From Symbiodinium sp. CCMP2592 (lineage: Eukaryota > Sar > Dinophyceae > Suessiales > Symbiodiniaceae), in assembly GCA_905221615.1 (NCBI GenBank), contig CAJNDT010000607.1, forward strand, positions 1-64,000: a stretch of 64,000 nucleotides of DNA. Direction: 5' to 3'. Of the stretch, positions 30,206 through 52,815 are shown piece by piece (within the stretch, counting starts at the first letter, position 1; every line of letters starts with the position of its first letter). The position numbers and the translations under genes were made by a program. Below the pieces are notes generated by a model, which saw nothing but the letters and a program-made list of their open reading frames with translations, searched no databases and was not told the origin of the DNA.

Positions 30206-30454
30206 CTGCTGTCACCCACAGTAGGCTGCAAAGCTTCTGCCGCCGTGGACAGATCCGCCCTTGACGAGGCCCATCTTCATAAGTTAGAGGGCCTGTCACT
30301 TGAGGAGGTAGTGGTTGTGGAAGTGTTTTGCGGATGCGGGAGACTTAGTTCTTCTTTGAAGCGTGAGGGTTTTGACGCATTTGGTGTTGACCATGTCGTT
30401 TCAAAGACTGCATGTTGCTCTGTTCTGAAGCTTGATCTTACATGTCCGGATGCG
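30206..30454 (+). pseudogene. E1 pol part 1: methyltransferase-like N-terminus
   Basis: Follows gag in the same frame after a single TGA. Contains VVVVEVFCGCGRLSSSLKR and AFGVDHV. These resemble motif I (F-x-G-x-G, cofactor loop) and motif II of cytosine-C5 DNA methyltransferases. The frame stops at CPDA, where E2 is inserted, and continues exactly in frame at 40391 (VQHLWSILKDP). Confidence 0.65.
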
Positions 30455-30584
30455 GTATGTGTGCTTGCTCACGAGTGTTTGGTAATGTTTTGCATGCTTG
30501 CTGCATTTCATGACACTTCATGTACATTGCAGCAAGCAGGCTCGCAGCTGCCAGCTCGCCTGCATCGCAGGCTGAAAATTTTGT
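30455..30584 (+). repeat. E2 repeat A1 (copy A2 at 39850-39979)
   Basis: 130 bases starting GTATGTGTGCTTGCTCACGA and ending CTGAAAATTTTGT. I see no mismatch to 39850-39979. After A1 the sequence runs AGGCCAACGGGCC; after A2 it runs CCCACCCACC. Confidence 0.95.
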
Positions 30585-30756
30585 AGGCCAACGGGCCTCG
30601 CCGTGTAAGCCCTCTAGAACAGTTCTGGAGGCTCCCAATCTTTGTGGATTTAGCTCCACTTCATTCCTCTCCCGCTCGCGATAGGGGGAGGAGTGCATGG
30701 TTTCAGGCCATTTGGCGTTTGCGATTTTACAGTGCATTTGGTATTTCATTTGCATT

Positions 30757-33337
30757 ATGGATCAGTCAGTGCCTGTGAGTGATTTGTCAGTGCCTGAGAT
30801 TGATGCATCTGCTTCACTTGGAACAGACATTGCGATTTCTGACCAGACTCGTTGCATTGTCAAGCGATTTCAGAAGCGGACTTCATCCCAGCAGGAAGGT
30901 TCGCCTACCTCGGAGGCCTCGCCTTCTGCCGTCGTTCTTGATGCAGTGGTTGCTTCTTCTCAGGGTGACCTGGAGGTGGATCCATTGCCCCGCTTTGGCC
31001 TTATCTGCACAGGACGCTGATCATGAGGCTCCATTACTCCCGGAGGTGGTCATCGCTGGAAATGATGTTCTGCAGGGGCCACAGCTGGACCCTGAAGGTT
31101 TTTCATTTGGGTCGCGACCCCCTTCACCAATATATGACCCCGATTTTGAGCTGGTAGATCCATTGGAAGCGTCTTTGGCACAACCTGTGGCAGCCTCTGC
31201 AGTCCATTCGGGGTCCTTTTCTTGGGATTTGATTTCGCCGGTGCCCGAGAAGACTCCTGCATTTTGCTCTACGGTATCATCTAGCTTCTCCCCACTTCGT
31301 GTGGGCCGTCTCTCTTTTGCGGAGACTGACAGGGAGATGGAGTCACCGTTGCTTCCGGCAGTCTCGCAACAGGAGCATTCATTTTCTCAGATGGAGGCCA
31401 CTTTGCATCCCAAGCCGGCTCCCTTAGCTCGGCCAGCCACACTCAGTGCTGGATGTGTTCGTGCTACAAGCTTGCATCCCATGGGTGCCAGGTCGACAGA
31501 ACATGCAAAATCGAGGCCGATTTTTCCACTTAGGGCCTCCATCGGGGTGCCCAGGACTGAGCCCAAGCCTCGTCCGGTTCCCTCCTCTCGAGGGGCGTAT
31601 GCTCGGTACCCATCTGATCATTTGCATTCTGCTTCTCAGGTGTCGGGGGCTCTCTCGAAGAGTTCGCCTCCATTTCAGGCTACAGGGTCCTCACCCCCTT
31701 CTGGTGGGGCCCCAGTGCAGCCACTTGGTCCTTTGCCGACCAAAGGTCCTGGTGCCAAGAGAGGAATTGATCTCCTTCATTCTGGCACCACCAAGGGAAG
31801 CTCCAAGGTGGTCAAGCAGTCCGAGGTGCATTCCAATCAGTGGTCACGGGCCCTTCAGTTGTGGTCGGAACTCTGCGAGTTTGCATTGTCATGTTCTGCA
31901 TTGCTCTGTGAAATTTTCCACAGCTCTAACAAACATTCCCTTTTGGAGCAATTGCTCCGCCGAGTGTCGGACACGACGGCGCTGCGATACATTGCAATTC
32001 TGTGGCAGCTGTTGCATACGATTCGCGACCTGGGTTTTGACATTACATCACTGTCTCAGGTTCAGCTTATTGACTCAATTCATACATTACAGAGATCTCG
32101 CAGCCATCACTCTTCGGTACATTCCATCAATGTGCTCAAGGCGGTACGATGGTTCTCTTCCACAGTGCAACCCTCGGGCTTTCCTTCCTTATACGATGGC
32201 TTGTTTCATGCCAGGTCATGGCAATCGCAAGGTGCCTCTAAAGAGGCTTTACCTCTTCCATTATCCTTCGTACTGTGGCTGGAGACCCAAATTGTGTGCG
32301 GCCACTTTACATTGGAAGAGACTGCTTTCGCGGGGTCAGTGCTAGTTTGCATTTGGTGCAGCTTGCGGTTTGGCGACTCCCAACACATTCAGTTGTCGGA
32401 TCTGTGCATTGACTTCGATAGCTTTAGAGGTGCATCTTACAGAACGAAAACACAGAAATTTATGGCTTTCGGCTGCCTTTTCTCAGGACTCTTGCGGCTG
32501 CCACGCACACAATGCTGGCTTTTGCATTGGCTTTTGGCTCTTGAGAAACTTATGGATTTACATTCAGATCCTTCGGACATACCGGACTACATTTTCTTCC
32601 TGCTTGACAAGGAGTGCATTAGACCTTTGACTTACGCAGAGTGCCTTTCGAGGCTCAGACGATTGTTGGTCATGTGGAACCAGCTGCCATCGGGTCAGGA
32701 ACTCCAATATACATTGCATTCCATGAAAGTTACATTGCTTTCTTTCTTCAGGCAACTGAACATGTCGCTTGAGTCAAGGCACCTTCAGGGCCACCACAAG
32801 CACTCTGCCTCTTGTGCTTTATATGGGAGAGACGACGTCTCTCCATTACTTCTGGCTCAGGACAGTTTTATTGAGAAAGTTAGAGGAGGCTGGCGACCAC
32901 GAACTCCATTAATGCGTGGGGTCACCTTTATGCCTCTTGAGCCGGCATTGCATTGGCCTCCGGACCTAGGGGCAGTGCTGTCTGCTGCATTGCCAGTTTT
33001 CTTCAGGTTGGATACTCTTCCACCGCCCTCTATGCCCTCGACCGATGTACCCTCAGCTCAGTCTGCATCAGCTGCACCGGTCAAGGATGTTGTTCCTTCT
33101 GCTTTGCCTGAAAAGGTTCCTGAAGAAGCGGAAACGAGCAGCTCGGAGGGCGAGCTGGGCGAGGCTGAGGAGATTGCATTCCTTAGTGCAACCACCAGCT
33201 CCATCATACACGCTTGCATTGAAGGCAAACCGGCTTGCGGCTGCCGGGGAACCTTCCATTTGGTTTCGCACCCACCTGCGGGCTCGCGATTTTGCAAGTC
33301 AAAGCCTTGCATTTCCATTCTCACGAATCTGGCGTAA
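30757..33337 (+). CDS. E2 tyrosine recombinase (one frameshift)
   Basis: ATG 30757 (MDQSVPVSDLSVPE) reads to about 31010, where a one-step frame change joins the long frame ending 33337. N-terminal third is low-complexity S/P-rich. A SAM-like core-binding region follows (LLRRVSDTTALRYIAILW). Catalytic boxes: CSLRFGDSQHI (R, ~32365), LHSMKVTLLSFF (HxxK, ~32713), LQGHHKHSASCALYGRDD (H and Y, ~32785-32837). A Cys-rich tail (CGCRGTFHL...CKSKPC) may be a zinc ribbon. Function: integration of circular cDNA by strand exchange. The frameshift lies in a non-conserved linker and could be a sequence error. Confidence 0.75.
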
Positions 33338-33627
33338 GCTGCCTCGGTTCTGGCGAAAACACTGCATTCAGTGTGCCTCGCGACTGGGATCATGCCATTT
33401 CATTCTGTGCCTTTAACTTCTGAGTGCGGGCGATTGCATTCTTCTTACTCTGGCAGCGGAGTGCTCAGCAGCTGAACCGTGTGAATGCTTTTCACATGCT
33501 CTACTTGCATTTTGTGCCAGGCATGACATGTCACTGCCACACAAGCCTATGCACATTCCTTTAGCAGGTTCACTTTTACATGGCTGTTAGGTTTGCTCTG
33601 ATTTTCGCATTCCGCTCCTTTTGCATC

Positions 33628-34344
33628 ATGGAGAATATCCGCCCAACTCAGCAGATCAGGGACGCTCTGAGTTACATTTACAACTCGGATGTCCACCAAG
33701 TGGTCAGCTGCATCAGAGGAGGACCGGCGGCAGGGCAGCGAAAGTTGCTGATGGTCGCTGCCATGAGTTTCCAGGTTTCTTCTGCATCTTCGAGTACATC
33801 TGCCCCTCCTGAGCAGAAAGAGGACAAGACTTCCATTCAGGAAGATGCACAGGGCAAGAGTACATTGGATGCTGATGCGCCAAAGGGGTCCGATCCATCA
33901 GCCCCAAAGGGTACCACTACATCAGCTGACGATGGACCTCCTGCGGATAAAGTTCCATCGCCTCCACCAGCCCCGAGTACATCTCCGGCTGCACACAAAG
34001 CTGAGGCACCGCCGATAAAGCCGATCCACGACCCTACATTCCTCGACGACAATGTGGCGGCGGATGCAAAGTGCCCAGTGGCCACACGCCAAGTCGTGTG
34101 CTGCAGGGCCGTTTGTGACACGGTCGGCTGCATTGCCTTATGCGGGTATAGCAGCGAGATCCCCAATGACAGTCACTTCATTACATCCTCCACTCGTCAT
34201 GCCTGTAAGGCATGTTACCGCAACAAGGTCCATTCCAAGGAGCCCAAGTCGTCGGATGCATCCTGGGATACTGAGTGGAGTGAGTGGGGCGATGATGATT
34301 GGCACGGGGACTCTTGGTCCTGGTGGAAGCGCAGCGGGTACTAG
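33628..34344 (+). CDS. E2 accessory Cys/Trp-rich ORF
   Basis: ATG 33628 (MENIRPTQQIRDALSYIYN), 238 residues. After a short helical head comes a long S/T/P/K-rich linker, then eight or more cysteines (CPVATRQVVCCRAVCDTVGC, ALCGY, HACKACYRN) and a W/D-rich tail (EWGDDDWHGDSWSWWKRSGY). E1 and E3 have only non-coding sequence between recombinase and gag, so this gene is specific to E2. No family recognised; a zinc-binding nucleic-acid protein is possible. Confidence 0.55.
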   Translation: MENIRPTQQIRDALSYIYNSDVHQVVSCIRGGPAAGQRKLLMVAAMSFQVSSASSSTSAPPEQKEDKTSIQEDAQGKSTLDADAPKGSDPSAPKGTTTSADDGPPADKVPSPPPAPSTSPAAHKAEAPPIKPIHDPTFLDDNVAADAKCPVATRQVVCCRAVCDTVGCIALCGYSSEIPNDSHFITSSTRHACKACYRNKVHSKEPKSSDASWDTEWSEWGDDDWHGDSWSWWKRSGY

Positions 34345-34821
34345 CCTCTTTATGGTCTAGCCTGCCTTTTTACATTTTGATCGGGGCTGCGCTTGTTTTC
34401 CATTGCCGGCCCCACCTTCGGACTTTGGTCCTACATTTCTCGAGCTTTCGGCTGCCACTCGGCGCCAATACTGCACCTCCCGGCGAGGGAGTGAAAAAGC
34501 CGGGCCTTTCGCCTGCTTTTGCATTGCTCGGCTTGCGACTGCTGCAATTCAGACCCTTGTGGTTTGCTTGATCGACCCCTCTGTGTTGATCGTCTTTTGG
34601 CTCAGCGATTGGCAACATGCAACATTTGCAATCACTGTCACTATGCAGAACACTTCCAGGCTACCTCTGGCAGGTCACACCTCTTCTAAGAGGCTAGATT
34701 TTGCAGCCATCCGCAGTTTGGCGACCGGTGCATTTGGCACCTTCTTTTACAGGCCCGAGGCTTCTGCTTCGTGTGCACTCTTTGCTTTGCACCCCGCCAG
34801 GTCGCGATATTCCTCTGGATC

Positions 34822-36024
34822 ATGTCGGCCCTCACTCTGGCCCAGATCCTCAGGGAAGAAAAAGTCCCGGATCTTATTGCGAGCCAACTTTCGTCACAGC
34901 TGACGATTCACTCATTTCCTTGCATCTGCGAAGGAGTCGAAAACTTGCAGGACTCCATCAAAGATGTGCTTGATGCACCGGGACAGGCCATGCTGAACCC
35001 TGTTATTCTGGCATGTCTCAAGGCTTCGTATCATCGTTGCATTTCTTCAGTTATATCGACTGCCCCTGCGGCCGGCACTGCATCTGTTGCATCTGGGAGC
35101 GCGGTGCCTTCTGCATCGTCTTGGACTGAGCCTTTTCCTGCGAAGTTGAGCATTGAGCGAGTGAATGCCATGAAAGCTACATTCGAAGCTTCATATCCCT
35201 CCGAAATTCTCGATGCATCCAGCATGCCCTCGTCAAGGCTACTTGCATCCGGCAACAAGCAAGTGCAGGACAAGCACTATTCTTACATTGCATGGAAGTT
35301 TCGACTCAGCGAAGAGAAACAGGAAGACGTTACATCATCCAGACCGAAAAAGGTCGCACGTCTCGACGACTTCATTTTTGACGACGTGCCCTGCAGGGAT
35401 ATAGCTGATACTGGCGTGTCGCAAATGTTCCTTTCGCATTTGTTAGACTTGATCGCCTTTGCATTTTGTTTGCTTGAAATCGGTCACCTCAGTTCCTTTC
35501 GTGCATACAACAAGCTTTTCATAAAGCTTGCATTCCATCGTCCGCCACCGGAGTCAGGGCTGCGAAGCCCTAACGTCACGGAAATGCAGGCGGCGGACCG
35601 CGAAGCTTGGAAATGCATTTGCGATTTGGTGAACAAAGGTTGGTGCATGGATGATGCATTACACGAGATCGTGCAAGTCCGCTGCATTTTGCAGAGTCAC
35701 CTGCAGCCGCGTGTTTTCATTCAGAAAACCAGGAGGCCCAGCACCGGGTCAGGCAACACACCTCAGCCTGAAAAACCCCACCCGAAGGGCAAAGGCGGCA
35801 AGGGCAAGGGCAAGAATGGTAAATCCAAGGACACCCGCGACCAGAATGGCCCCAAGTGGATGGTTTCATTTTATGAGAACGGAGTTCAGAAGCAGATGTG
35901 CAAGCGATGGAACCTTCGTTCTGGTTGCAAGTTGGATGACTGTACATTCATACATGGTTGTGCTATTGACGTTGGCGGCCGACCTTGCGGCAAGGATCAT
36001 CCCGCTTACATGCACAAGTCCTGA
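34822..36024 (+). CDS. E2 gag with CCCH finger
   Basis: ATG 34822 (MSALTLAQILREEKVPDL), 400 residues. Helical N-terminal two-thirds (LNPVILACLKASYHRCISS; FLSHLLDLIAFAFCLLEIG), a basic K/G linker (GKGGKGKGKNGKSKD) and a C-terminal finger C-x8-C-x5-C-x3-H (CKRWNLRSGCKLDDCTFIH), which is exactly CCCH spacing, followed by CG-x2-HPAYMH. CCCH fingers usually bind RNA. It ends with TGA (36022-36024), in frame with pol. Confidence 0.75.
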   Translation: MSALTLAQILREEKVPDLIASQLSSQLTIHSFPCICEGVENLQDSIKDVLDAPGQAMLNPVILACLKASYHRCISSVISTAPAAGTASVASGSAVPSASSWTEPFPAKLSIERVNAMKATFEASYPSEILDASSMPSSRLLASGNKQVQDKHYSYIAWKFRLSEEKQEDVTSSRPKKVARLDDFIFDDVPCRDIADTGVSQMFLSHLLDLIAFAFCLLEIGHLSSFRAYNKLFIKLAFHRPPPESGLRSPNVTEMQAADREAWKCICDLVNKGWCMDDALHEIVQVRCILQSHLQPRVFIQKTRRPSTGSGNTPQPEKPHPKGKGGKGKGKNGKSKDTRDQNGPKWMVSFYENGVQKQMCKRWNLRSGCKLDDCTFIHGCAIDVGGRPCGKDHPAYMHKS

Positions 36025-39000
36025 AACAGCCCGAAACCTGTGGAGGGACAGTTTTCAGGGCTTGCAACACATGCACCCTCACCTGTTCCATCGGCAGGTC
36101 ATACATCTACCTCTGATGCTGACATTCTTGACTTGCTTCAGCAGTCCTTTACATCAACAACTGTGAAGTACAGATGGCAGGCTATTGAGGGCGACCGTGC
36201 AGATGCCGCCTACTTTAACCTTGGTGGTTTCTCTCAGTCGGTGCGTTTTGGATTGACACATCATACATTCCAATACCAGCATATCTTGTGCCGACTTAAT
36301 GCCTGGTTATGCATGCTTTTTCCATTGGGTACATGGACTTCTCTTTGCATCTCTCACAACGAGGTGCTCAAAGTTCATCGCGATACATCCAATGAGCCCG
36401 GCACCCTTAACTACACTGTTGCCCTGGGCGATTTTTCGGGCGGAGGTTTACTGCTGGAATCTTCATCGGGCGAGAAATCCTTGCGAGTCGAAGCCTTACA
36501 GAAGTGCATCAACTTTTCATTGGTTGACACCAGGTCTTCTCCCCTTGCATTTGATGGTGGTCTTTGGCACGCCACTGAGCCCTTCGTGGGCGACAGATGG
36601 GTCATCACTGCCTACACCTGCAGGCGTTTGGCAGAATTTCAGTCATCGGATGTTGATGCATTGCGCATGTGGGGGTTTCCCCTACCTGGCGAATCCTTAC
36701 CTCGTCGTTTGCCTCAACCTCAGGCGGTCGAACTGCCTCAGCCGGTTCTTCCGAAGAAATTCTGCCTTTTGCTGGCTTCACAGCACTCTGAGGTACTTCG
36801 TGCTGGCCTCTCAACTGCTGGGGTTCCTCACGTTTGCATTCAGTCTCTGGATCAGGAGCATGCCAGAAATTGCATTTTTCGTTGTGCGGGAGAAGGTGTT
36901 TTTCCTTCCATCTTCATTGTGTACTCTCCTGACTGGAGCGAGAGTCACACTCGCTGGGTGCTGCAACTCTGCAAAGTTGCTTATTCGGCAGGCTCTGCAG
37001 TGCATCTTGATATTTCTGGTTGGACCCAGTGCTGGTCGGATCAACTGTTCCTTCACTGCATTTGTACTGGTCTGCAACACATCGTGCAGGTGCCGGTGTG
37101 TGCCTACAAGGGGGTTGGTGGTTGCCCCTGGATCATGGTTTCTTCTTCGCCTTCCTTTTCTGCATTGGGGCACCCATGCTCATGTAGTAGGTGCCGTTCG
37201 ACTTCCACGATTTCTGACTATCCTCCTGCATTCGTGGATGCTCTTTGCGATATCCTGCTGATATCCAAACTTCGCAAATGCTCAGGTCAATGTGAGTTTT
37301 CCATTGATGAGGCTTGGTCTTGCATTCCAGAAAAGCCGACTGACTCTCCACCACATGCTTGGGTGGATGGTGGCGGCCTTCAGAGCCGTCCCGACTGGAG
37401 TGGCCATGAGCGGTCCACTGATGATATTTTCAAATCGCTCCGCCATGCCTTAATTACTTGGTGTGGCAAAGCTTGCATTCCGTCCAGAGTTCGTCACAGA
37501 TTGTTGCATCCCTCAGATTCCCATCTCTTCTCGGAAACTGAGGTGAAGGAAATCCGTGGTCTTTTCAGCACTTGGCTGGAGTCCCAAGGTTGCAACTCCA
37601 TTGACTGGCAGGTGAAGGATGGTCAGCCATACTGCTTGCATTCTCTGGCTGCATTGTCTTCGGCTCTTAAAGATGCTGATATGACTCTCTTCAGTGCATT
37701 ACTCAGTGGCGTTCCTACTGGCTTCAAACACGATATACCCATTTCCGGGGTTTTCGCTCCCTCTGGTCGCTCAGCTTCAGATGATGCATTGACTGTCTGT
37801 CAAGAAAATTGGCAGGGGGCTGAAGACGACCCAGTCCTCCTGGAGGAGCTAGTGCAGATCGAGGTGGACAAAGGCTGGTTACGTTGCATTGAGTCTTTGG
37901 AAACTGCACGCCAGATCTGGCCCAATGTTGCTGTTGGCAAGTTGAATATTGTACATTCCGAGGGCAGAAAACCTCGCTTGGTGGTTGATTCTTCCATTTG
38001 TGGTACAAATGCCTGCTGCCTCATTCCTGAGCGCTCTGCATTACCTACACTACAAACTATCCAAGCCTCCTGGCCAATACTGGGGAGACTCGAGCCTTTG
38101 GCAGCTTGGTCCATTGATGTTCAGGCCGCACACAAATCCATTATGGTGCGAGACTCGGAACAGGGGCTACTGGGCATTCGAGTTGGTCCCAAGCTCTATT
38201 TCTATACAGTTTGTCCCTTCGGTGCAGCTTTTTCAGCTTTCTGGTTTGCTCGCCTTGGTGCATTTTTCGTTCGCACACTTCATCGCTTGATCTTCATTTC
38301 TCACTGGCTGGCCATGTATGTGGATGACTTACTTGGCTTTCAATCTGCATCAGTTGCAGAGATGAGCTTTTGCATTACTTTATGCTTTTGTGGGGCCTTT
38401 TCCATCCCCTTGTCCTGGAAAAAGTTACAGTTTGGCTGCTCCATTCGTTGGATAGGATGGGAGCTAAATTTCAGTATGGGCTGCGTTTGCATCCCATCTG
38501 ACAAGCTTGAAAGGTTGCATTCGGTTATCGTGTCTGCACTCCGTGGCAAGTACACTGATCGGGCTACATTGAGCAAGTTATGCGGCATGTTGCGATGGCT
38601 TTTCAAACTTTTTCCATTGGCTAGGCCATGGCTGAGGTCTCTTTATCAAGACCTCAACACTCCACGTGCAACCAACTTCAGTGTTCGACAGAACGACTGG
38701 CAATCATTCATTTCTTGCTTGAACGACAATTTACATTTGGTCAAGTTACCTCCTGGATCGGCGATTACGGTGGGCAGCCGTGTTCTTGCTGTGAGACATC
38801 ACAAAGTTGCCACAAAGCGCGAACTTTTACATTGCAACCTTGGTGATAAGGATATCTGGCTTCGCATTGCGGACTCTGCATCCAAGCGTCGTGCATTGAG
38901 TCCATCCTCCAGAAGTTTGTTGCAGTTCTGGCTTGATTGGTCTGCATTGCCTCCAATTTGGCGATCGCTTCGCCCTATGGAGCATTTACAGGTGGAGGCA

Positions 39001-39576: not shown

Positions 39577-39644
39577 TCACCTTGTCGCACGTTTTTCATT
39601 TGGGGAATTGATGCGCGACTTCGGTTCTCTGGCAGATTGCATTT

Positions 39645-42350: not shown

Positions 42351-44426
42351 ATGCCTCCGGAGAAGAGGCCAGCCGACTGGCGTGGTCTAACTGCTGTTAG
42401 TGAAGAACTGGCTTGCGAAGTTCAGAAGTGCTATCATTCTTTGGTACAGTTCGACGGTGCTTTTGAAGATGAGGCAGGTGCAGCAGTGATGGTTGCCGAA
42501 TTACTGGGAGATAAAAAGCCTTCAGCAGAGGTGGATCGTATCTCTACATCACTTTGGCAATGGCGAGAGAAAAGGCAGCGGAGGGAGCCGCCGACATCTC
42601 GTCTGCTGCAGAGAGCATTGCCAGAATTGCCAGTTCAGGTGCCAAGGCCTGGGGTGAGCATGCAAGATGTCTTTGATGAAGTCGTAAGCACGACGCCAGC
42701 TGTGGCAGTCGCCTTGCTTCAACGTGCAGTGCGGGTGAGCAAAGCTGGTGGGAATCGCGAGGAATTGGAAGCCCGGCTCAAGGAGCGGTGGGCGCTTGAA
42801 CTCGTGGGCTACATCAAGGAATCTAAGCTACCATGTGCGGCCCGGATGGAGGCATTGGGCGACGGAAATCAACAGTGGCTGCGAGTGTTCGGAAGTCGCA
42901 GGGGAAAGACCTTGCGTAATCGTGCGAGGGCGTGGAAACCACTCCGGGACTGGCTGATGACGTCATATGGCAAGACTTGGCCCGATTCGGCAGCGATGGT
43001 CTTGAAGTACCTGGAAGAGAGGCATGGCACCGTGCCGCTGGGGAAGACTGTGCCGAATTCGATCATGGCAAGTTTATCATTGCTGGAGACAGTGGGAATG
43101 GTTGCTTCTGAAGAACGGCTCAGCGAAGACCCCTTGCTAGTCGAGAGCGTGAGATCATGGACGGCCGAGCTCGAGGCAGGGGGCCCAGCCGTGAAGGCAG
43201 CACCGCTGTTGCCGATTGCAGTGATCCTTGCATGTGAGATGGTAGTCTGCAGACCAGTGTATGAGCTAGGGCTTCGCTTCACTGCATTTGTCTTGTTGCT
43301 TATGATCTGGGCAAGCATGCGCTGCGATGATGTTCAGAACATTGACCCCGAAAGCTTGAAACTTAGCCAAGTGGGCCTGCGCTTCGTGCTTCGCAAGACT
43401 AAGACGAGCGGTCCTGGCCGGAAGATCGGGGAACTTCACGGGTTTGTTTCTCGGCTTGCTGGGCTTAGTGGATTTGATTGGCTAGGGGAGGGAGTGAAGC
43501 TCCTGAACAGCGAATTGCTCTCTTGGTCGCGTGACTTCTTGTGTCCCGCATTCAGCAGCGAGTGGGATCTGCCCTCGAGGGGCTACATGGATGCAGAAGG
43601 CCTGGCATTGCAGCTGCGACGGCTCCTTCAGCATTTGCCCACTCCTGTGCGGCAGCAAGGGGTTTGGAAGGTTTCCCGTGAGTTGCTTTTCCAAGGGGCT
43701 GTTGTCTCCTTTTGGACAGGGCATAGTGCGAGGCATGTCTTGACTAGCATTGCTGCAGCGCTCGGAGTTAAGAAGGACCAACGTGATTATCTCGGGCGCT
43801 GGGCCTATGCGCAGCATGGATCCCAGGATTATGTGCTGACCTCTCGCCAGGTCGTTCAGGGGATTCAGAACTTCGTGTGCAAATGCTTACTTGCAGGCAG
43901 AGCCGAGGGGAGTTACTCCGAAGAGGAACTGTTCTGCGAATTGCATGCATTTGCAGAAGCGTCTGGACTAAGTGGTGACTCGGTGGTTCGGGCTTGCTCT
44001 GTTCTTCAATGGGACGATGCCGAGGGCACTTGGAAGCTGGGCGGTGCATTTCCCTGCTTAAGTGTGTCGCCTGAGAGAGTGCGGGCTGCTGCAGGCGACA
44101 TGGAAGCATCGCTGCCAGGAGCATACCAAGAGTTCGATGCGGAGGTGGATCAGGACGAGGCACCTTATTTCATTACGGTGTCCAGAAAGGGCTTTCGTCG
44201 CTTGCATCTTTCGAGAAAGTGCGCGGTGCGGCGCGAGAATTGTCTGGAGACCATCCCGATTTTCAAGTTGTCGGAAGGGATTGCCGATGCAATGTGTAAG
44301 CTCTGTAAGCCGAGGGCGGATCAAGCAGGAGATTCATCAACCAGCGGATCGGAGGAAACACAGGCCAATCCAGGGGAGCCGGGAAGCCGCGGGAAGCCCT
44401 GCTGCGGAGCTCCCAGATTTCCATGA
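42351..44426 (+). CDS. E3 tyrosine recombinase
   Basis: ATG 42351 (MPPEKRPADWRGL), 691 residues, uninterrupted. N-terminal helical part; core-binding-like region around WKPLRDWLMTSYGKTWPDSA; catalytic domain with IWASMRCDDVQNI (first R, about residue 323), RKTKTSGPGRK (the beta-hairpin lysine region), TGHSARHVLTSIAAALG (HxxR, about 457) and YLGRWAYAQHGSQDYVLTS (W and Y, about 480-495). The C-terminal LHLSRKCAVRREN...CKLCKP is a likely zinc-binding tail. Unlike E1 and E2, this enzyme keeps the canonical HxxR and W. Start chosen as first ATG after A1; the frame is open slightly upstream. Confidence 0.88.
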   Translation: MPPEKRPADWRGLTAVSEELACEVQKCYHSLVQFDGAFEDEAGAAVMVAELLGDKKPSAEVDRISTSLWQWREKRQRREPPTSRLLQRALPELPVQVPRPGVSMQDVFDEVVSTTPAVAVALLQRAVRVSKAGGNREELEARLKERWALELVGYIKESKLPCAARMEALGDGNQQWLRVFGSRRGKTLRNRARAWKPLRDWLMTSYGKTWPDSAAMVLKYLEERHGTVPLGKTVPNSIMASLSLLETVGMVASEERLSEDPLLVESVRSWTAELEAGGPAVKAAPLLPIAVILACEMVVCRPVYELGLRFTAFVLLLMIWASMRCDDVQNIDPESLKLSQVGLRFVLRKTKTSGPGRKIGELHGFVSRLAGLSGFDWLGEGVKLLNSELLSWSRDFLCPAFSSEWDLPSRGYMDAEGLALQLRRLLQHLPTPVRQQGVWKVSRELLFQGAVVSFWTGHSARHVLTSIAAALGVKKDQRDYLGRWAYAQHGSQDYVLTSRQVVQGIQNFVCKCLLAGRAEGSYSEEELFCELHAFAEASGLSGDSVVRACSVLQWDDAEGTWKLGGAFPCLSVSPERVRAAAGDMEASLPGAYQEFDAEVDQDEAPYFITVSRKGFRRLHLSRKCAVRRENCLETIPIFKLSEGIADAMCKLCKPRADQAGDSSTSGSEETQANPGEPGSRGKPCCGAPRFP

Positions 44427-44749
44427 ATGAGCAGTGTGATTGTGCTGCGTGTGATTCGAAAATGAAGGTTGCGTTCAAGTGTGAAGCTCACGCTGCGGGT
44501 GGAATGCAGCAGTAGAGGTTTGAGGGGCTGCGGGTGGAATGCAGCAGTAAAGCTTTGTTCAGGCTGTCGGTGGAGCACAGTCACATGCGATTGAGTGAAG
44601 ATGCCGGTGGAGTGCATCGAGTGATGAATCCGGATCTCGCATGTTGTTCAAGTGAGAGAGCGAGGATGTGATGTCATGACTAAATTTCTCTGGAACATGT
44701 TTCATGCTGACATGTGCTAGGAGCTCGCTCTTTCTTCCTCTGCGCGATC
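44427..44749. other. Non-coding gap of E3 with short direct repeats
   Basis: Contains GCGGGTGGAATGCAGCAGTA twice and degraded GGTGGAGTGCA-like versions, i.e. a ~35-base imperfect tandem. No ORF; E2 carries an accessory gene at this position. Confidence 0.6.
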
Positions 44750-46084
44750 ATGGCAACCGGGCTCCCAACGGGAGTCGATCAAGCTGCGACAATGGACTTT
44801 CTTGATAAGAATGTCAGCTCCGATTTGGTGCACATCTTTCAAGAATGTGGTGTGCCATTGGGGCTGCAGTACCGGCTTTCCCAGAATTTCCAGTCAGTGA
44901 AGCGTTTCTCGACTTATGCGGATTCGAGAGCAGATGTGCGGACTGCACTCAAAGACGATCACACTTTGGAGGCTACAAATCAGGAGACGCGGGCGGCAGT
45001 CGCTTCAGTGGTTTCGGCCTGGGAGACTTCAAAGGAGTACGCGAGCAAAGAGTCGGAGCTGAGGGCTGAGGCCCGCATGTTGGGAGTGAACAGGCCTGTC
45101 ACTCAGACTGAGAAGCAGGCCATGAGAGTAGCTTTTGAAGCAGCGCATGGGACCTTGGAGGAATCCTTCGAGCCGTCAGATGATTACATTTCGGCAAAAT
45201 TAGAGGAGATCGAGAATGGGGAGGTTTCAGCAAGTTCACTCTCTGAAGTTACTTCTAAGAAGCGGGTCAAAACAATGGGCATCCAGACCACCGTGGACAC
45301 CGGCGGGCATGTGCGGATTGTCAGGCAACGGAACAAGGGTGTGATGCCGCAGCACACAGAGGAGTTGCGGACTGTCTTGCGTGTGGAAGGAAACATGTGG
45401 ACTATGCTTGCATCCAAGTTCAAGAACAAGCCATTCTTTGCGCAGATGACACCTGAGGTGTGGTTGAGCTATGTCAACTTCTTGTTGGGCGAGAAGGTGT
45501 ACCTTATGCAGGTTCCTGCCGGAGGAAAGGGTGGAAAGCTGGACCAGGCCCCTTTGCGGCCACCTTGGGTGGTGGTCCTGAACTTTGAATACGAAATGCG
45601 AAAAGAAGCGATCAAGCGTGCTTTCCGGGATTCTCGCCCTCTCCGTGATACCCTGCGTGAGGTGACCGAGGATGCACAGATCAAGGAGCAGTATTTTACA
45701 TCTCCCATTGCTTTGCAGAATCGCGGGAAGCGGGCCACCGAGAGCTGGGAACCTTGGGATGAGAGCAACAAGTGGAATCGCAATGCCTGGAAAGGCAACT
45801 CTTGGGCTCAGCGAGGCGAGCACGATAAGGGAAAGAAAGGCAAGAAAGGCAAAGGGGAAGGAAAGAAAGGGAAGGATGGAAAGGAAGGCCCGGGAAAGTC
45901 TCAGAGCATCACATCGTCACGGACGCCCGATGGGCGTTTCATCTGCTTCGCGTACTCAGGGCCGGGATGTGATGGAAACTGCGGTATGGTGCATTGCTGC
46001 CAGGTCAAGGGCTGCTTTGGAGCCCACCCGACGTGGAAGCATTGGCAGCTTCAGCATGAAGGGAAGAACGAACAGAAGAGCTGA
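44750..46084 (+). CDS. E3 gag with CCCH-like finger
   Basis: ATG 44750 (MATGLPTGVDQAATMDF), 444 residues. Helical N-terminal half, a central conserved-looking block (MWTMLASKFKNKPFFAQM; VWLSYVNFLLGEKVY; FRDSRPLRDTLREVTEDA), a basic K/G linker (KGKKGKKGKGEGKKGKDGK) and a C-terminal finger CFAYSGPGCDGNCGMVHCC...CFGAHPTWKH, the counterpart of the E2 CCCH finger. It ends with TGA at 46082-46084, followed by CTT and in frame with pol. Confidence 0.8.
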   Translation: MATGLPTGVDQAATMDFLDKNVSSDLVHIFQECGVPLGLQYRLSQNFQSVKRFSTYADSRADVRTALKDDHTLEATNQETRAAVASVVSAWETSKEYASKESELRAEARMLGVNRPVTQTEKQAMRVAFEAAHGTLEESFEPSDDYISAKLEEIENGEVSASSLSEVTSKKRVKTMGIQTTVDTGGHVRIVRQRNKGVMPQHTEELRTVLRVEGNMWTMLASKFKNKPFFAQMTPEVWLSYVNFLLGEKVYLMQVPAGGKGGKLDQAPLRPPWVVVLNFEYEMRKEAIKRAFRDSRPLRDTLREVTEDAQIKEQYFTSPIALQNRGKRATESWEPWDESNKWNRNAWKGNSWAQRGEHDKGKKGKKGKGEGKKGKDGKEGPGKSQSITSSRTPDGRFICFAYSGPGCDGNCGMVHCCQVKGCFGAHPTWKHWQLQHEGKNEQKS

Positions 46085-49000
46085 CTTAGCGTGCTGGTGG
46101 TGTCAGATCGTGAGGTTTTTGAATCAGTGCATGAGTGTTTACAAGAATCCGTGGAGAAGAACGGGATCCAGCTTAAGGTTGATCACTTCTTCAATGATAA
46201 TGAACTTGGTGACTGGTCGAGCCCTGATGCTTGGGCTTCCGTTTCCGGTCGATTAGCCACCGGAACATGGCAGGCCGTGCTCATGTTCCCGCCGTGCAAG
46301 ACTTTCAGTCGCGCCAGGCATCACAGTGGCCCCTCGCGCAGTGGGCCGAAGCCTTGCCGGAGCAATAATTTTCCTCATGGGTTCCCTTGGTTGTGCAAAC
46401 AGATGTCGGAAGCCGTTGCAGCCGAGGACTTTCTTGTCACTCAGTGTTTAAAGTTGCTGCAAATTTCTTCAGAGATTGGGTTGGGTTGGTTGTTGGTGCA
46501 TCCCGAGGACCTAGGGAAGCTGAAGTCACTGGATGTGCCTGCTAGCATTTGGCAGTGGCCTGAGGTACGGGATGCAATCCAGGCTTGCGCGAAGGCTTCC
46601 ACACGGGCCGTGCATATGTGTACGTACGGTCATGCTGCACCACATCCCACGCGTGTTGCATCAAACCTGCGTGTGGAACCTTCGGGCCTCTCCTGGCCCA
46701 CTTTCGACTTGCAAGGGTTTTACATAGGGCCTTTGGGCCGATGCCCGCATGTTCATCATAATGCTGTGGGCCGCAAAGGTGCTGCTTGGGCCACCAGTCA
46801 GCCCTTCCCAAAGCCTTTCTTCCAGGAACTTGCTGATTTGGCGTGTGCATGTGCTTCGGACCACCGGTCCACTGACCAAGGTTTTGCAGGCGCCGAAGCT
46901 TTTGCTGCATTCCTTCTTGAACGAGATTCGGGCATCACAACCCATGATGCCGAGGCCCTCTTCCATTTGCTGCCATTGGAGGCACCGCATCCAGCTGCTC
47001 AAGGTGAAAAGGTTTCTTCAGGACAGGCTTTCTTCGGAGGGGCCTTCCGGAAAGGCCCGTTCCACGGTTTGCGGCATAGCTGCGCGGCTTTCCCAAAGTC
47101 CTTGCAATGCTTCACCAAATTGCTGCGTTCGTCCTTCCCGGGCGAGGTTTTCAGTTCTTTCGCGATTTTCTTGAATTGCAAAGCAGAGATGCATCGTGAC
47201 AGCCGGAATGCCCCCTTTCCTAACTTGCTCCTCGCCTTGTCAAATTTCGATCAGGGCCACGTCTGGGCCGAGGATCCCAAAGGACTCGTCTTTCGTGAAG
47301 TGCGCGGTGAGCTCCGCCCGGGCTGCTTGTTGGACGTTGCACAACAACCTCAACGTCTCATGGCTCACACGTGCTTTCATCAGACCGAGCCGTGGCAGGG
47401 TGACCGTGTCCTGCTGGTGGGTTTCACGGTTCGGGACCCGTGCGATCTCAGCTCGGAACATGTCCACACCTTGCACACTCTGGGCTTTGTGCTGCCATCC
47501 TCTGCTCCGCTGAAGCAAGGGGGTGAGAATGATGTCGCCGATGATTGCAGCCCCCTGTCTCCTGATAGCACCCCCCGTGAGGTGCCCTCCGGGGCCCTTG
47601 ACCCCGGTAGCACCCCTCTGGGAGGGACCACCCCGGAGGCTCCAGATAACACCCCGGCAGAAGGGCCCACTCTGCCGGCACCCGACACTAGTCACAGTCT
47701 TCCCGCTTCCCCAGGTCGTGCCGTTGTGACAGATGACGATGAAGCGTTTGATCCTACAACCAGTCGGTGTCGGGGTCCTCCCATTAGGTGCCGGCACACT
47801 CCTGACTGGAGAGAGTTGATTGACGGTTTCGGCTTGTGCTCGCCGGGTCGATGGCGACCGGTGGCAAGGAACGCTAAGGCTAGTTCGGAGGAATGGGACC
47901 ATGCACAGGATCTTCGGAAGATCCTCCAACGTGCTGTGCATGCGACCATCCCAGACCTCCGAAAAGCTGCTTACCTCTTAGCAGCGGGACGGATGCCATC
48001 TTCACCTTTCAGCAGCAAGCTGATTGAGGACACGCGTGAACAGATCGCTAAGACCCTGCCCGATCCTGAACAGGCCATGTGCCAACCGGCAGGGCAGCCT
48101 TTCATGTTGCACATGATGTCCCAATCGCTTAAGCTCCTAGGGGATCCGGACTACGAAATCCTTGACCAAGGGAATGAATGTTTCGCCGAGGGTGTTCCTT
48201 TGGGGTGGGATAGACCAATCCCCCGCACTCCTCAGGTTTTCCCTAAGCGCACGCACTTCAAGAAACTGGATGAGTCTGATTTTGATCCGTCGATGTTGAA
48301 TTACCGCTCAGCCGAGCTGAATGCTGATCAGCTGGAGGAGAAGTTCCGCCAGGATGAACAAGCTGGCTTAATGCTTTGCACTACGGAGCTGGAAGCTCGC
48401 CGGAAGTACGGCGAGGACTCGGTACTCATCGCGGCCATGGGCGCCGTCACCAAGGCAAACGGTGACGTGCGCCCATTACACGATGGGACCCACGGCATCA
48501 ACTTGAATAACTCGATCAAGATCCTTGACAAGCTGCAAGTCCCAGGACCGGAAGATCTTCAGGAAGTTGCCTCCCGGGTCAAAGAAAGTAAAGAAGCCCC
48601 TTTCACACTTTGTGCCGACATTAGTCAAGCCCACAGGAATGCAAAAATCAGGGAGTGCGACTGGCCCCGGTTAGCATGTAAATCTTCTAGCACTTCCCGT
48701 GTCTTATGGCTCAATAAAGTTGGAACTTTCGGGGTCAGCTCGGCGGCTTACTACTGGACGCGCTTGTTCGCCACTGTGGGAAGGTGGACCTTCCGCGTGC
48801 TGCATCTTGATAAATTTTACATGCTAATTTATGTCGATGACCTTCACGTGGTGGTGTATGGTGCAGACAAATTTGAGACGCTGTGGCTCCTCTTCTTGGC
48901 GATGGAAGTCTTGGGGACACCCTTCTCCTTCCACAAGTTCAAAGGGGGTGTCAACGTGGATTACATCGGCTACCACATCAGTTACTACGACTGGGCCGCC

Positions 49001-49933
49001 GGGATTTCCGAGAAGCGTGCTGCTTGGATCGTCGAATGGGTGGACCGTGCGGAAGCCGCGAATTGGGTGGTGACCGGCCGGGCACTGTCTGAGTTCACGG
49101 GTCGCTTGAGCTTTGTGACACGGCTCCTCACATGGTTGAAGCCGTTCCTGGCCCCGCTTTTCGCTTGGGGCAATGCGTTGAACCGGAGCACCGCGGCTCA
49201 GGCTCCTGAGATGGTGATCCACGTGCTCAGGTTTTACCGCTGGCAATTCTTGAATGGAGCTCGGTTGGATGCTGTTCACATGTGCTGGCCTTCCCACGAG
49301 CGGCAAGCCTTCAGGACAGATGCCAAATGCGAGGCGGGACGGATCGTGCTGGGTGGATGGTCTCTTGACCATGGCTTGGACACCCGCCGGGCACCTTGGT
49401 TTGCGCTGGAGGTCTTCCCTGCGGATATGCCGGCGTTGTTCAAGGAAGATGGGTCATCCGAATGGGCTTCGACAGCTGCGGAGTTGCTGGCTTCTTATGC
49501 AGGCTTGGTTGCATTCAAGCACTTGGAGCCGGCCGGGGGTCGCGATGCACTTCGCTTGCAGGTCCATGCTGGCACGGACAATTCAGCCACGCCAGCCGTA
49601 CTTGAGAAAGGGATCAGCAACAAGTGGCCTGTGCAGGGCCTGCACATGCAGCTGTCGGTTTCGCTGCGACATGCCAATAAGGTGTGTAAGTTGTCATGGC
49701 GCCCGCGCGAGGAGAACCAGGACGCTGATGATCTGACGAATCTCAGACTTGACAATTTCGATCCCGCCTTGCGGATCCCGCTTTCGCTATCGGCTATCCC
49801 GCTTGATCTTTTCAACCGCCTTCAGGACTCTCATGCGGGCTTCTTGTCTGAGAAATCCAGGTTGTCAAACTTGAAGCGGCATGAGCCGAAGGCAACGAAG
49901 AGGCAGAAGCTTCTTGATAAGACCAGCTGGTAA
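46085..49933 (+). CDS. E3 pol: methyltransferase-like, 2OG-like, RT, RNase H
   Basis: Open from the gag TGA to 49933 in the same frame; residues counted from 46091. Methyltransferase-like ~1-235: LVVSDREVF, MFPPCKTFSRARH (PPC 67-69, like motif IV), LVHPEDLG (137-142), HMCTYGHAAPHPTRV, RCPHVHH. 2OG-Fe(II)-like ~310-450: MHRDSRN (H368, D370), CFHQTEPWQGDR (H430, R439). P/T-rich linker ~485-550. RT ~720-960: FTLCADISQAHRN (D843), VGTFGVSSAAYYW, LIYVDD (914-917), HKFKGGVNVDYIGY. RNase H ~1060-1240: FRTDAKCEAG, TAAELLASYAG, TDNSATPAVL, DADDLTN. This intact copy is the best material for testing the modifying domains. Confidence 0.85.
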   Translation, partial: LSVLVVSDREVFESVHECLQESVEKNGIQLKVDHFFNDNELGDWSSPDAWASVSGRLATGTWQAVLMFPPCKTFSRARHHSGPSRSGPKPCRSNNFPHGFPWLCKQMSEAVAAEDFLVTQCLKLLQISSEIGLGWLLVHPEDLGKLKSLDVPASIWQWPEVRDAIQACAKASTRAVHMCTYGHAAPHPTRVASNLRVEPSGLSWPTFDLQGFYIGPLGRCPHVHHNAVGRKGAAWATSQPFPKPFFQELADLACACASDHRSTDQGFAGAEAFAAFLLERDSGITTHDAEALFHLLPLEAPHPAAQGEKVSSGQAFFGGAFRKGPFHGLRHSCAAFPKSLQCFTKLLRSSFPGEVFSSFAIFLNCKAEMHRDSRNAPFPNLLLALSNFDQGHVWAEDPKGLVFREVRGELRPGCLLDVAQQPQRLMAHTCFHQTEPWQGDRVLLVGFTVRDPCDLSSEHVHTLHTLGFVLPSSAPLKQGGENDVADDCSPLSPDSTPREVPSGALDPGSTPLGGTTPEAPDNTPAEGPTLPAPDTSHSLPASPGRAVVTDDDEAFDPTTSRCRGPPIRCRHTPDWRELIDGFGLCSPGRWRPVARNAKASSEEWDHAQDLRKILQRAVHATIPDLRKAAYLLAAGRMPSSPFSSKLIEDTREQIAKTLPDPEQAMCQPAGQPFMLHMMSQSLKLLGDPDYEILDQGNECFAEGVPLGWDRPIPRTPQVFPKRTHFKKLDESDFDPSMLNYRSAELNADQLEEKFRQDEQAGLMLCTTELEARRKYGEDSVLIAAMGAVTKANGDVRPLHDGTHGINLNNSIKILDKLQVPGPEDLQEVASRVKESKEAPFTLCADISQAHRNAKIRECDWPRLACKSSSTSRVLWLNKVGTFGVSSAAYYWTRLFATVGRWTFRVLHLDKFYMLIYVDDLHVVVYGADKFETLWLLFLAMEVLGTPFSFHKFKGGVNVDYIGYHISYYDWAAGISEKRAAWIVEWVDRAEAANWVVTGRALSEFTGRLSFVTRLLTWLKPFLAPLFAWGNALNRSTAAQAPEMVIHVLRFYRWQFLNGARLDAVHMCWPSHERQAFRTDAKCEAGRIVLGGWSLDHGLDTRRAPWFALEVFPADMPALFKEDGSSEWASTAAELLASYAGLVAFKHLEPAGGRDALRLQVHAGTDNSATPAVLEKGISNKWPVQGLHMQLSVSLRHANKVCKLSWRPREENQDADDLTNLRLDNFDPALRIPLSLSAIPLDLFNRLQDSHAGFLSEKSRLSNLKRHEPKATKRQKLLDKTSW

Positions 49934-49980
49934 ATCGGTGCGTTCACTGGGGCCGCCTTGCAACGGGTTCTTCTAAAGTC

Positions 49981-50246
49981 GGGGGATGCTTCGGAACCGG
50001 TTGCTGCTGCAACCCCGTTCTGCCGTAAGTGCTGTGGCTCCCTCACTTGTGCCTGTAGGCTGAGAGGTTGAATCCAATGGAGCGGTCCCAACACACATCC
50101 GGAAAAAGATCGAAGCTGTCCGAGAGTGCGTGCATCACACATGTTCGGGAGTTCGTGCGGTCCTGCCTTTTGCGATTTGATTCTTCCCTACACCTTATGC
50201 CCTGCCACCCTAGAGCCGCTGCCTTTTGGTTCAAACGACGGGACAA
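49981..50246 (+). repeat. E3 repeat B1 (copy B2 at 50584-50849)
   Basis: 266 bases starting GGGGGATGCTTCGGAACCGG and ending CGACGGGACAA; one difference from B2 (TTGATTCTTCC versus TTGATTTTTCC). Abuts A2 directly. Confidence 0.95.
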
Positions 50247-50468
50247 ACCGTTTGGGTTTCCCAAAAGGATTGTCTCGTAGTTTGAGCCGGGCGGGTGGGC
50301 CGGGGGAAAAGTTGTGTAAGAAAATGAAATGGAATTTTCTCGTTTGCACTTCGCTTATTCCTTTGCTTGCATTCGGTTGCCAACGGCCTTGAGTTTGCAC
50401 AGCTGGGAGTTCTGCCGAACGAATGATTCTCCTCCGTGGCCAATTCGGGTCCGAGACAATTTTGTGAC
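50247..50468 (+). repeat. E3 repeat A2
   Basis: Second copy of 42079-42300, followed by a 115-base spacer starting CCACCCACGCC. Confidence 0.95.
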
Positions 50469-50583
50469 CCACCCACGCCACCCTTGGTTCTTGCAAAGCA
50501 AATCTTGAAGGCTACAGTGTTTAACGTATCACTTATGTGCATGTGCCCCTCTGGATGTGCAGATACGCGTGACGTCCTGCAGT

Positions 50584-50849
50584 GGGGGATGCTTCGGAAC
50601 CGGTTGCTGCTGCAACCCCGTTCTGCCGTAAGTGCTGTGGCTCCCTCACTTGTGCCTGTAGGCTGAGAGGTTGAATCCAATGGAGCGGTCCCAACACACA
50701 TCCGGAAAAAGATCGAAGCTGTCCGAGAGTGCGTGCATCACACATGTTCGGGAGTTCGTGCGGTCCTGCCTTTTGCGATTTGATTTTTCCCTACACCTTA
50801 TGCCCTGCCACCCTAGAGCCGCTGCCTTTTGGTTCAAACGACGGGACAA
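50584..50849 (+). repeat. E3 repeat B2, right end of E3
   Basis: Second copy of 49981-50246. E1 pol resumes at CTGAGCAGTTTG. Confidence 0.95.
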
Positions 50850-52815
50850 CTGAGCAGTTTGTTGAACAAGCTGCGCGCATCGGCCATCCCACTCAGCTGT
50901 CCTCTCTTCTCCCGCAAGAGATTAGGTCTGCAGTTCAGAAAATCCACCGCCAAGGCGAGGCCAACGTGGCGTTGGAAAGGACCGAAACTCTTCGCAGGTG
51001 GATTGCACTTGCGTCTGAGCTTGAACCAGTTGAGAAGGCTTTGAAAGCCGATTTGCCTGAGTTCCGGAAAGATGTTCTTTCGACCAAACGCTTGGCCTTG
51101 TTCCGAACCCTCTTGAACGAGGTTCAGCATGAGGACGTCACGCTTGTGGATGATATCCTTAAAGGGTTTGATTTGACTGGTAAGCTGCCCTTATCCAATG
51201 TCTTCACCCGGAGGTTCAAACCAGCGGAACAGTCCGAAGCTCAATTGAGGTCTGGCGCCAAGCGGTTGCGGGACGGCTTAGTGGCTACTGTCAAGGCCTC
51301 CGACGATCCCGTGATTGACCAAGGGGTCTTGAAGGCCACTCACAAAGAACTTGAGCGAGGGTTCGTGGAGGGACCCATTGCTTTGAGTGACGTCCCCTCC
51401 AATGCGTCGCTCACGCACAGGTTTGGTGTGCGCCAAGGGGAATCCGAGGATGGGCCTAAGATTAGGCCTATCGACAATTACTTGTCGTCGCAAGTGAACT
51501 CGGCCGTTTCGCAAAATGAGCAGATAAGTGTCCACACGATCGACATCGTCGCTGGCCTGTTGGGGTGTTGGTTAAATGAGTGGTTCCTTAGTGGTCGCTC
51601 CGAGCATGCGGCCCCTGTGTGCAAAGCATGGGATCTGCGTACTGCTTACAAACAACTCCCGCTATCCGACTCTTCGTACGAGCTTGATAGCTACTTCATC
51701 TTGTTCAACGTCGAAAAGGGCGAAAGTGAGGTCTACAAGCAGCGAGTTCTTCCTTTCGGATCAACCGCAAGCGTCACCAGCTTCATCAGGGCAGCATACG
51801 CGATTTGGAAGCTTGGGGCAGTAGCCCTCACGCTCGCTTGGAGTGAGTATTTCGATGATTACTTGAACGTTTGTGGGGCAGCCTTTGCCAAGCATTGTGA
51901 TTTCGTGATCACGATGTTTTCAAGTTGATCGGCTGGGAAGTATCCCGAGACAAGGAACTGAGTTACAGCTCCATGTGTGTGGTCCTTGGGGTCCAGATCA
52001 ATCTTAGGGACGCTAAGCTTGGTCTCATCTTCCTTGAAAACACTACCAAGCGACGGTCAGAGGCCTTGAAGGACATTGATCGCGCCCTTGCCACGGGCCA
52101 GCTTGACCCTAGCGAAAGCGAGAAGCTGCGTGGTCGGCTTCAGTTTGCAAGCTCTCAGGTTTTCGGCCGCCGCCCAAAAGCAGCGCTTAAGCTTTTAGGA
52201 CAACACTCTCGTCAACGCAAGTGGGAGCTCAGCCCACTTGCTCTTCTTGGGTTAACTCAGCTTAAGCAGTTTCTTGAGGCTTCGAAGCCGAGGCCAGTGC
52301 GTGCTAGACGGGATGAATATGTGCACATCTACGTGGATGCATCCTTCGAGCCCGGTGGCTACTGCGGGTTAGGAGGGCTGATTTTCAACTCATCTGGTGC
52401 CGCCCTGAGTTGGTTTGGATACAAGCTGCAACAGTGCCATGTGAACAAGCTGCTCAAGGATGGAGAGCGTGAAAAGGAAACTGTAATCTTCGAACTTGAG
52501 GCGCTTGCTCTGGCCATTTCCTTGGAAGTTTTCAGGCCGCTCGTAGGGCGCAAAGGCGTGGTGGCTTTCACTGACAACGAAGGTGTGTTTGGAAGCTTTG
52601 TTCGAGGACACAGTGACAATTCGGTCTGCGCATCGTTGATCGATTTCTTCGCTCGCAGCGAGGAGGATCTTGAAGTGATCTGCTGGCTGGATCGTGTCCC
52701 ATCGCTGTCGAACCCAGCGGACAATCCGTCCAGAGGACAACAGATCTCAGGTGTGCCCAGGACCGAAATATCAGCTGCTTTGCTCGCTCGTGCTCTCCCT
52801 TTGGTCTTCAAGTGA
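50850..52815 (+). pseudogene. E1 pol part 3: reverse transcriptase and RNase H
   Basis: Resumes as EQFVEQAARIGHPTQLSSLL. RT motifs: GPKIRPIDNYLSS, AWDLRTAYKQLPL (motif A), LPFGSTASVTSF (motif B), WSEYFDDYLN (motif C, FDD variant). A one-base frameshift at about 51925 (MFSS-stop versus KLIGWEVSRD) leads into RNase H: VHIYVDASFEPGGYCGLGG, FELEALALAI, VAFTDNEGV, WLDRVPSLSNPADNPSRG. Together with 30206-30454 and 40391-42078 this completes the E1 polyprotein. Confidence 0.8.

Follow-up and report, generated by a model that had tools for sequence, protein, structure and literature searches.

We analysed a 64,000-nucleotide stretch of the dinoflagellate Symbiodinium sp. CCMP2592 genome (hereafter, the window), which is part of contig CAJNDT010000607.1, labeled C607 here. 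Three retroelements, E1, E2 and E3, lie on its forward strand between 27.5 and 52.8 kb. Their Pol proteins share a module that is very probably a divergent TET/JBP-related 2-oxoglutarate (2OG)-Fe(II) oxygenase. We consider it rather likely that this oxygenase, which resides in one frame with the reverse transcriptase (RT) and often next to a C5-methyltransferase module, oxidises a DNA base. The elements would thus represent a multi-copy retroelement family with a TET/JBP-group oxygenase inside Pol, many copies having it beside a C5-methyltransferase module.

An oxygenase module inside Pol

A preliminary description of the window had noticed in all three Pol proteins an HxD...H...R pattern characteristic of 2OG-Fe(II) oxygenases. 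The residues are indeed present: counted from the frame start, they are H370, D372, H432 and R441 in E3, and H118, D120, H182 and R191 in E2 (the initial numbering was 2 and 5 lower, respectively). Both of the E1 motifs, HKD and HATMPWGGRR, were also found, but not in a single intact frame, as a frameshift near 41870 (between 41869 and 41871) breaks the module of this decayed element. Sequence comparison revealed that E1, E2 and E3 have in common a single homologous HxDxxN...HxT...R module. In BLASTP, the E3 module aligns with that of E1 at 38% over 102 residues (E=1e-18) and with that of E2 at 28% over 173 residues (E=4e-11). A profile of the E3 and E1 modules detects E2 Pol at E=5e-16 (best of 2000 shuffled sequences, 1.1), and a ten-row E3-type profile detects both E1 (2e-25) and E2 (2e-20), the best value among 3000 shuffled sequences being 0.38. 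The oxygenase precedes all other modules in the Pol of E2, and the module order thus differs between the elements.

The assignment to the TET/JBP group is based on a homologous Pol protein elsewhere in the same genome (1,098,105,373 bases, 1.1 Gb, searched). The Pfam family Tet_JBP (PF12851) matches four places in it (E=2.2e-4 to 3.0e-4; 150 candidates scored), all within open frames of 1231 or 1283 residues, and none in 14 control genomes. The four frames are on contigs C485, C113, C1308 and C1371; one of them (C485; loci L154 and L155) was read, in part. Among 24,736 Pfam families, Tet_JBP is the only one to match the C485 frame up to E=10 (2.1e-6, 27.5 bits). The order of modules in this open frame is Tet_JBP, followed by a C5-methyltransferase-like module (VEVFSGT, PPCGTASRAR, ENPANS and TRLLTNC) and RVT_1 (E=0.0034), so that the oxygenase comes first, as in E2. 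BLASTP links the frame to the oxygenase modules of E3 (3.3e-22), E1 (2.4e-16) and E2 (1.1e-9) as well as to the methyltransferase-like module of E1 (1.6e-25). The corresponding profiles detect it at 5.2e-44 (oxygenase) and 1.4e-30 (methyltransferase), against best shuffles of 0.083 and 1 (n=1000). Since Tet_JBP recognizes this intermediate homologous Pol, we assign the window modules to the TET/JBP group, which narrows the original, broader assignment to 2OG-Fe(II) oxygenases. The motifs are in keeping with it: TET2 chains retrieved from PDB read HRDLHN and LHATTP. In addition, a profile of the distal core had a single match up to E=10 among 177,635 PDB sequences, a TauD/TfdA-like protein (E=0.8), with His and Arg in register.

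Related copies are abundant. The genome yielded at least 39 matches to E2 Pol, at least 91 to the first 472 residues of E3 and at least 96 to the E1 Pol piece, all lower bounds in which fragments of one copy are counted separately. Identities descend stepwise from 100 to about 33%, and many copies have open frames of 1180-1360 residues. For the E3 type we sampled 50 of the 91 matches (the best 30 plus 20 hand-chosen for lower identity, with a bias toward open frames). The alignment retained 49 of 51 sequences (E3 and the 50 loci, one of which is E3 again), two having failed the filter. The preliminary description had named loss of HxD...H...R in most relatives as grounds for refutation; instead, each residue is kept in 46-48 of 48 rows (1 of the 49 is gapped). 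D372, N375, H432, T434 and R441 are present in all 48, whereas H370 is present in 46. Position 436 is more variable (Pro in 35 rows, Ser in 7, Asp in 6). In the E2 type, 28 loci gave 20 stop-free rows of exact length, with E2 counted twice; H118, D120, N123, T184 and R191 are kept in 20/20 and the distal H182 in 19/20. The E1-type sample comprises 6 of the at least 96 matches (L145-L150, partly fetched), and HxDxxN is found in 6/6. In L148 and L150 it reads HRDLHN, identical to the corresponding hexapeptide of the TET2 chain. One copy of this sample, L149, is located on C113, about 19 kb from the Tet_JBP frame of that contig.

The ratio of nonsynonymous to synonymous substitution rates (dN/dS) indicates that the additional modules are maintained. 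Between E2 and its 8 most distant rows the ratio is 0.05 for the oxygenase, 0.06 for the next module, 0.04 for RT and 0.07 for the RNase H region (dS is near 1 for RT and the RNase H region and saturated in the linker). Between E3 and six rows of the 85% type it is 0.11-0.12 for the oxygenase, 0.12-0.13 for the methyltransferase-like module and 0.01-0.02 for RT. As their values fall within 0.05-0.13, the oxygenase and methyltransferase-like modules are under purifying selection, which in E3 is looser than that on RT.

Several observations weigh against the assignment. All four genomic Tet_JBP matches score under the curated cut-off (27.5-29.6 versus 34.9 bits). Searches of Pfam, NCBIfam and PHROGs matched the oxygenase modules of E1, E2 and E3 neither to Tet_JBP nor to another 2OG family, and six E1-type and seven E3-type relatives likewise have no such match in Pfam. 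The family profile did not single out AlkB or YbiX among 20 E. coli proteins (below 1% in hhalign), and the methyltransferase profile did not recognize E. coli Dcm; the superfamily link rests on Tet_JBP because the profiles miss these three proteins. AlphaFold models of the E3-first and E2-first oxygenase modules (4 rows each) were of low confidence, with a mean predicted local distance difference test (pLDDT) score of 38, and had no fold match. Single-sequence PDB searches gave nothing for E3 and unrelated proteins for E2. Two E3-type rows have Pro in place of the first His, and one E2 row has Arg in place of the distal His. To these may be added the loss of the motif IV Cys in several subfamilies of the methyltransferase-like module. 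One of the Pro-containing rows, L106, reads PRD within a frame of 1270 residues; such rows might form a minor subfamily in which the iron site is impaired.

Other searches for relatives were unproductive. PDB sequence searches with queries A1, A3 and A5 found nothing, and the matches of queries A2 and A4 were attributed to chance. Viral-contig scans for module relatives gave nothing usable, and two prokaryote-genome scans found no relatives. Two phage matches of the oxygenase modules proved on reading to be unrelated proteins, and a phage match of the E1 methyltransferase piece was weak (E=3). Phage Nigel, which we take to be a TET/JBP carrier, had no HxDxxN frame in the stretch inspected and no match in the ten proteins tested.

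The methyltransferase-like module

A methyltransferase-like module had been described for all three elements. This holds for E1 and E3, the modules of which are homologous (profile E=7e-10, best shuffle 0.078). The same profile does not detect E2, and E2 has no PPC motif. The stretch following the E2 oxygenase is under purifying selection and by eye resembles the end of the module, but not significantly; we therefore do not claim that E2 carries a dead methyltransferase. The E1 motifs FCGCG, GVD, PPCGTAS and ENPARS are present as described, flanking the E2 insertion on both sides. For E3 the PPC motif was confirmed, but a GxG motif I is absent, and HPED occupies the position of ENP. Taken together, the motifs and the homology support the identification of the E1 and E3 module as a putative C5-type relative.

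Conservation of the catalytic motifs varies among subfamilies. In the 49 E3-type rows, the motif IV Cys is Cys in 37, Ala in 5, Ser in 4 and gapped in 3; the displayed rows with Ala or Ser belong to types of 40% and 47-52% identity with frames of about 1290-1320 residues. The Glu of HPED is present in 49/49, and no displayed row has a GxG motif I. Five of the six E1-type loci have a motif I (FCGSG, FCGTG, FSGSG, CSGAG or SPGSG); none was observed in L148. Two of the six (L145 and L147) retain the PPC Cys, and in L146, L148, L149 and L150 its place is taken by Trp, Ser, Ala and Ser, respectively. L145 and L147 also have ENP, and their motif I is FCGSG or FSGSG. The module thus looks intact in some subfamilies and appears to be a pseudo-enzyme in others. 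Because the Cys is lost while the rest is retained, the Cys-less form is probably kept in some subfamilies as a DNA-binding partner or a structural part.

Family searches had little to add. The window modules have no match among the C5-methyltransferase families of Pfam, NCBIfam and PHROGs; PF00145 (DNA_methylase) does not match E1, E2 or E3, and its only match is L133 (E=0.34, at motif IV). Matches of an S-adenosylmethionine methyltransferase model of Pfam in the first part of the E1 module (0.2) and in L146 (0.15) were judged to be chance. The same applies to the 63 stretches from a PPCGT pattern scan, upon frame reading and tblastn (best 0.04).

Possible role and relation to known systems

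We consider the following scheme. Gag-Pol would be made by readthrough of, or restart after, the TGA codon at the end of gag. Because the oxygenase is part of Pol, it would travel with the element's own cDNA, in the particle or in the nucleus together with RT. There it would most likely oxidise a DNA base. This base could be 5-methylcytosine, made by the methyltransferase of the same Pol or by one of the host, or it could be thymine, which would become 5-hydroxymethyluracil. Such oxidation could lift or alter marks, and new cDNA or inserted copies would escape recognition or silencing. That the oxygenase acts on nucleic acid is probable. We favor DNA as the substrate because the family is of the DNA type and the partner is a C5-methyltransferase. 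The cDNA of the element is the nearest DNA, and the odds that the element's own DNA is the substrate appear about even. A mobile DNA-modification cassette, as initially proposed, is therefore plausible. For the subfamilies typified by L145, L147 and L154 we tentatively raise the rather doubtful idea that a single Pol methylates cytosine and then oxidises the 5-methylcytosine formed. All three keep PPC and ENP, HxDxxN and the distal His (L145 and L154 also show the oxygenase Arg; the fetched stretch of L147 stops short of this position).

It might be argued that the oxygenase acts on RNA instead, either the element transcript or host mRNA. In retroelements generally, Pol is packaged together with element RNA. 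Moreover, an orchid Ty3/Gypsy retrotransposon carries an AlkB-type N6-methyladenosine demethylase with measured activity (PMC9289625). We nevertheless regard this as unlikely, in that the intermediate relative is recognized as Tet_JBP rather than AlkB, HxDxxN is as in TET2, and a C5-methyltransferase-like module shares the frame. Equally unlikely in our view is a protein-directed or non-catalytic, structural role, such as that of a nucleic-acid-binding or hydroxylating particle module. The E3 methyltransferase-like module, still selected after the loss of catalytic residues in several multi-copy subfamilies, indicates that non-catalytic use is tolerated; yet the four predicted metal and 2OG residues of the oxygenase are near-universal down to about 27-35% identity, which structure alone would not demand. 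Finally, a coincidental HxD...H...R pattern in a module that is not a 2OG oxygenase, in line with the missing direct library match and confident fold for the window modules, is very improbable given that these residues are near-invariant and are spanned by the Tet_JBP match in a homologous Pol.

The reading of a Pol-borne DNA-base oxygenase can be compared with published systems, for which we relied on excerpts of the cited articles. The preliminary description considered the arrangement to differ from known elements; as regards the methyltransferase this does not stand, since SymbioDIRS-Dnmt3 elements, with a C5-methyltransferase in the Pol of Symbiodinium DIRS-like elements, were published in 2018 (de Mendoza et al., PMC5890265). 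The C5-methyltransferase domains of two such DIRS-type copies methylate CG in yeast, and the authors consider the cDNA of related elements likely to be methylated upon retrotranscription (PMC5890265). Compared by description only, these elements resemble ours in A-coding-B-A-B repeats, a separate recombinase open reading frame (ORF), a C5-methyltransferase in the RT ORF and two domain orders. They differ in that the excerpts do not mention TET, dioxygenase or hydroxymethyl, and in that their key methyltransferase residues are reported as conserved, whereas here PF00145 reaches only 0.34 and the Cys is lost in several subfamilies. DIRS elements with a DAM-like adenine methyltransferase likewise have an accessory DNA-modification domain in Pol, but of the adenine type and with no oxygenase named in the excerpts (PMC5890265). 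In fungi, TET/JBP dioxygenases have moved between unrelated types of mobile elements (Kyakuja, Zisupton, EnSpm, hAT, IS3EU, Helitron and others) and are proposed to act against silencing or mutation by the host (PMC12730594); those are DNA transposons, while here the oxygenase is in one frame with RT. The orchid element is also a retrotransposon with a 2OG oxygenase, but of the long terminal repeat order, with the AlkB-type enzyme in an additional ORF and reported activity on RNA (PMC9289625). Our searches of the open-licence literature did not turn up TET/JBP in the Pol of a retrotransposon, whether or not accompanied by a methyltransferase.

Two testable questions follow. The first is whether retroelements place and revise base marks on the cDNA they produce; the second is whether these elements contribute to dinoflagellate 5-hydroxymethyluracil, a base reported to be enriched about 2-fold in multimapping reads of Breviolum minutum (PMC11071213). 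If a writer and an oxidiser do act in one Pol, and if many such copies exist and are expressed, they could account for an appreciable part of the oxidised bases of the host, for example the 5-hydroxymethyluracil reported as enriched on repeats in dinoflagellates. That the oxygenase hardly varies while the neighboring methyltransferase decays shows which half selection maintains.

Organization of the elements and other features of the window

The preliminary description listed three independent elements. Three were confirmed, but they are nested, with E2 and E3 inserted in the pol of E1 (Table 1). The split direct repeats reported for E2 and E3 are present, their copies being 100% (A) and 99% (B) identical in E2, and 99% (A) and 100% (B) in E3. 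The order A1-ORFs-B1A2-B2 is that of tyrosine recombinase (YR) retroelements. As the repeat copies are 99-100% identical, both insertions are probably recent. The E2 insertion has no evident target-site duplication; comparison of the flanks closes the E1 frame through the methyltransferase-like module, the exact join being ambiguous by a few bases.

Table 1. Positions of the elements, their ORFs and Pol modules in the window
Feature	Position	Strand	Remarks
E1	27547-52815	+	Host of E2 and E3 insertions; from frames, ends not delimited
E1 recombinase-like ORF	27547-28659	+	
E1 gag-like ORF	29177-30205	+	End TGA 30203-30205
E1 pol pieces	30206-30452, 40394-42072, 50850-52815	+	Last piece assigned by position and frame
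E1 methyltransferase-like module, part 1	30326-30451	+	Upstream of E2; motif I FCGCG 30326-30340, GVD
E1 methyltransferase-like module, part 2	40394-41020	+	Downstream of E2; PPC 40448-40456, ENP 40649-40657
E1 oxygenase module	41498-42014	+	Frameshifted 41869/41871; HKD 41714-41722, distal His 41889-41891, Arg 41916-41918
E2	30453-40393	+	Inside E1 pol; from split direct repeats and ORFs
E2 repeats	A1 30453-30584, B1 39644-39852, A2 39848-39979, B2 40185-40393	+	
E2 recombinase-like ORF	30779-33337	+	
E2 gag-like ORF	34690-36024	+	End TGA 36022-36024
E2 pol	36025-39576	+	
E2 oxygenase module	36193-36690	+	HRD 36376-36384, distal His 36568-36570, Arg 36595-36597
E2 post-oxygenase stretch	36742-37284	+	
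E3	42073-50849	+	Inside E1 pol; from split direct repeats and ORFs
E3 repeats	A1 42073-42300, B1 49981-50246, A2 50241-50468, B2 50584-50849	+	
E3 recombinase-like ORF	42300-44426	+	
E3 gag-like ORF	44711-46084	+	End TGA 46082-46084
E3 pol	46085-49933	+	
E3 methyltransferase-like module	46085-46864	+	PPC 46289-46297; HPED at ENP position
E3 oxygenase module	47006-47500	+	HRD 47192-47200, distal His 47378-47380, Arg 47405-47407

The Pfam family RVT_1 matches all three Pol proteins below its curated cut-off (E2, 0.0018; E3, 0.029; E1, 4.3e-6, within 50675-51928). The RTs of E2 and E3 align at 6e-14, whereas the E1 RT aligns with neither at E 0.1. The oxygenase/methyltransferase cassette common to E1 and E3 therefore appears to precede RTs that differ strongly from each other, if the RT piece following E3 does belong to E1. 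For RNase H, only E1 gives a Pfam match (RT_RNaseH, 0.11), a weak one. The recombinase-like ORFs have no Pfam recombinase match; what we take to be recombinase motifs were recognized in them by eye. E1 and E2 match each other in this ORF at 9e-5, and E2 and E3 at 0.002-0.005, with no match between E1 and E3. We classify all three as YR (DIRS/Ngaro-like) retroelements.

In each element the last codon of the gag-like ORF before its TGA specifies Ser, and pol follows directly in the same frame. The TGA is immediately followed by CT in E1 and E3. TGA followed by CT is a frequently leaky stop context. Gag-Pol readthrough at TGA is likely in the three elements.

Two further matches within E1 were judged to be chance, namely DUF7769 of Pfam in an E1 piece (0.005) and, after frame reading, an E3-module match at 29016-29147 (E=0.005). 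No spliced leader was found in the 64-kb window. A full-length U6 spliceosomal RNA is encoded at 776-885 on the reverse strand (E=1.3e-13); like the genome size, it marks the host as a eukaryote. The same strand has an open frame of 1491 residues at 5575-10050, which no Pfam family matches at E=0.1 or better. On the forward strand, a frame of 1418 residues at 58525-62781, in a region with a GC content of 61-67%, matches RVT_1 at 1.5e-14.

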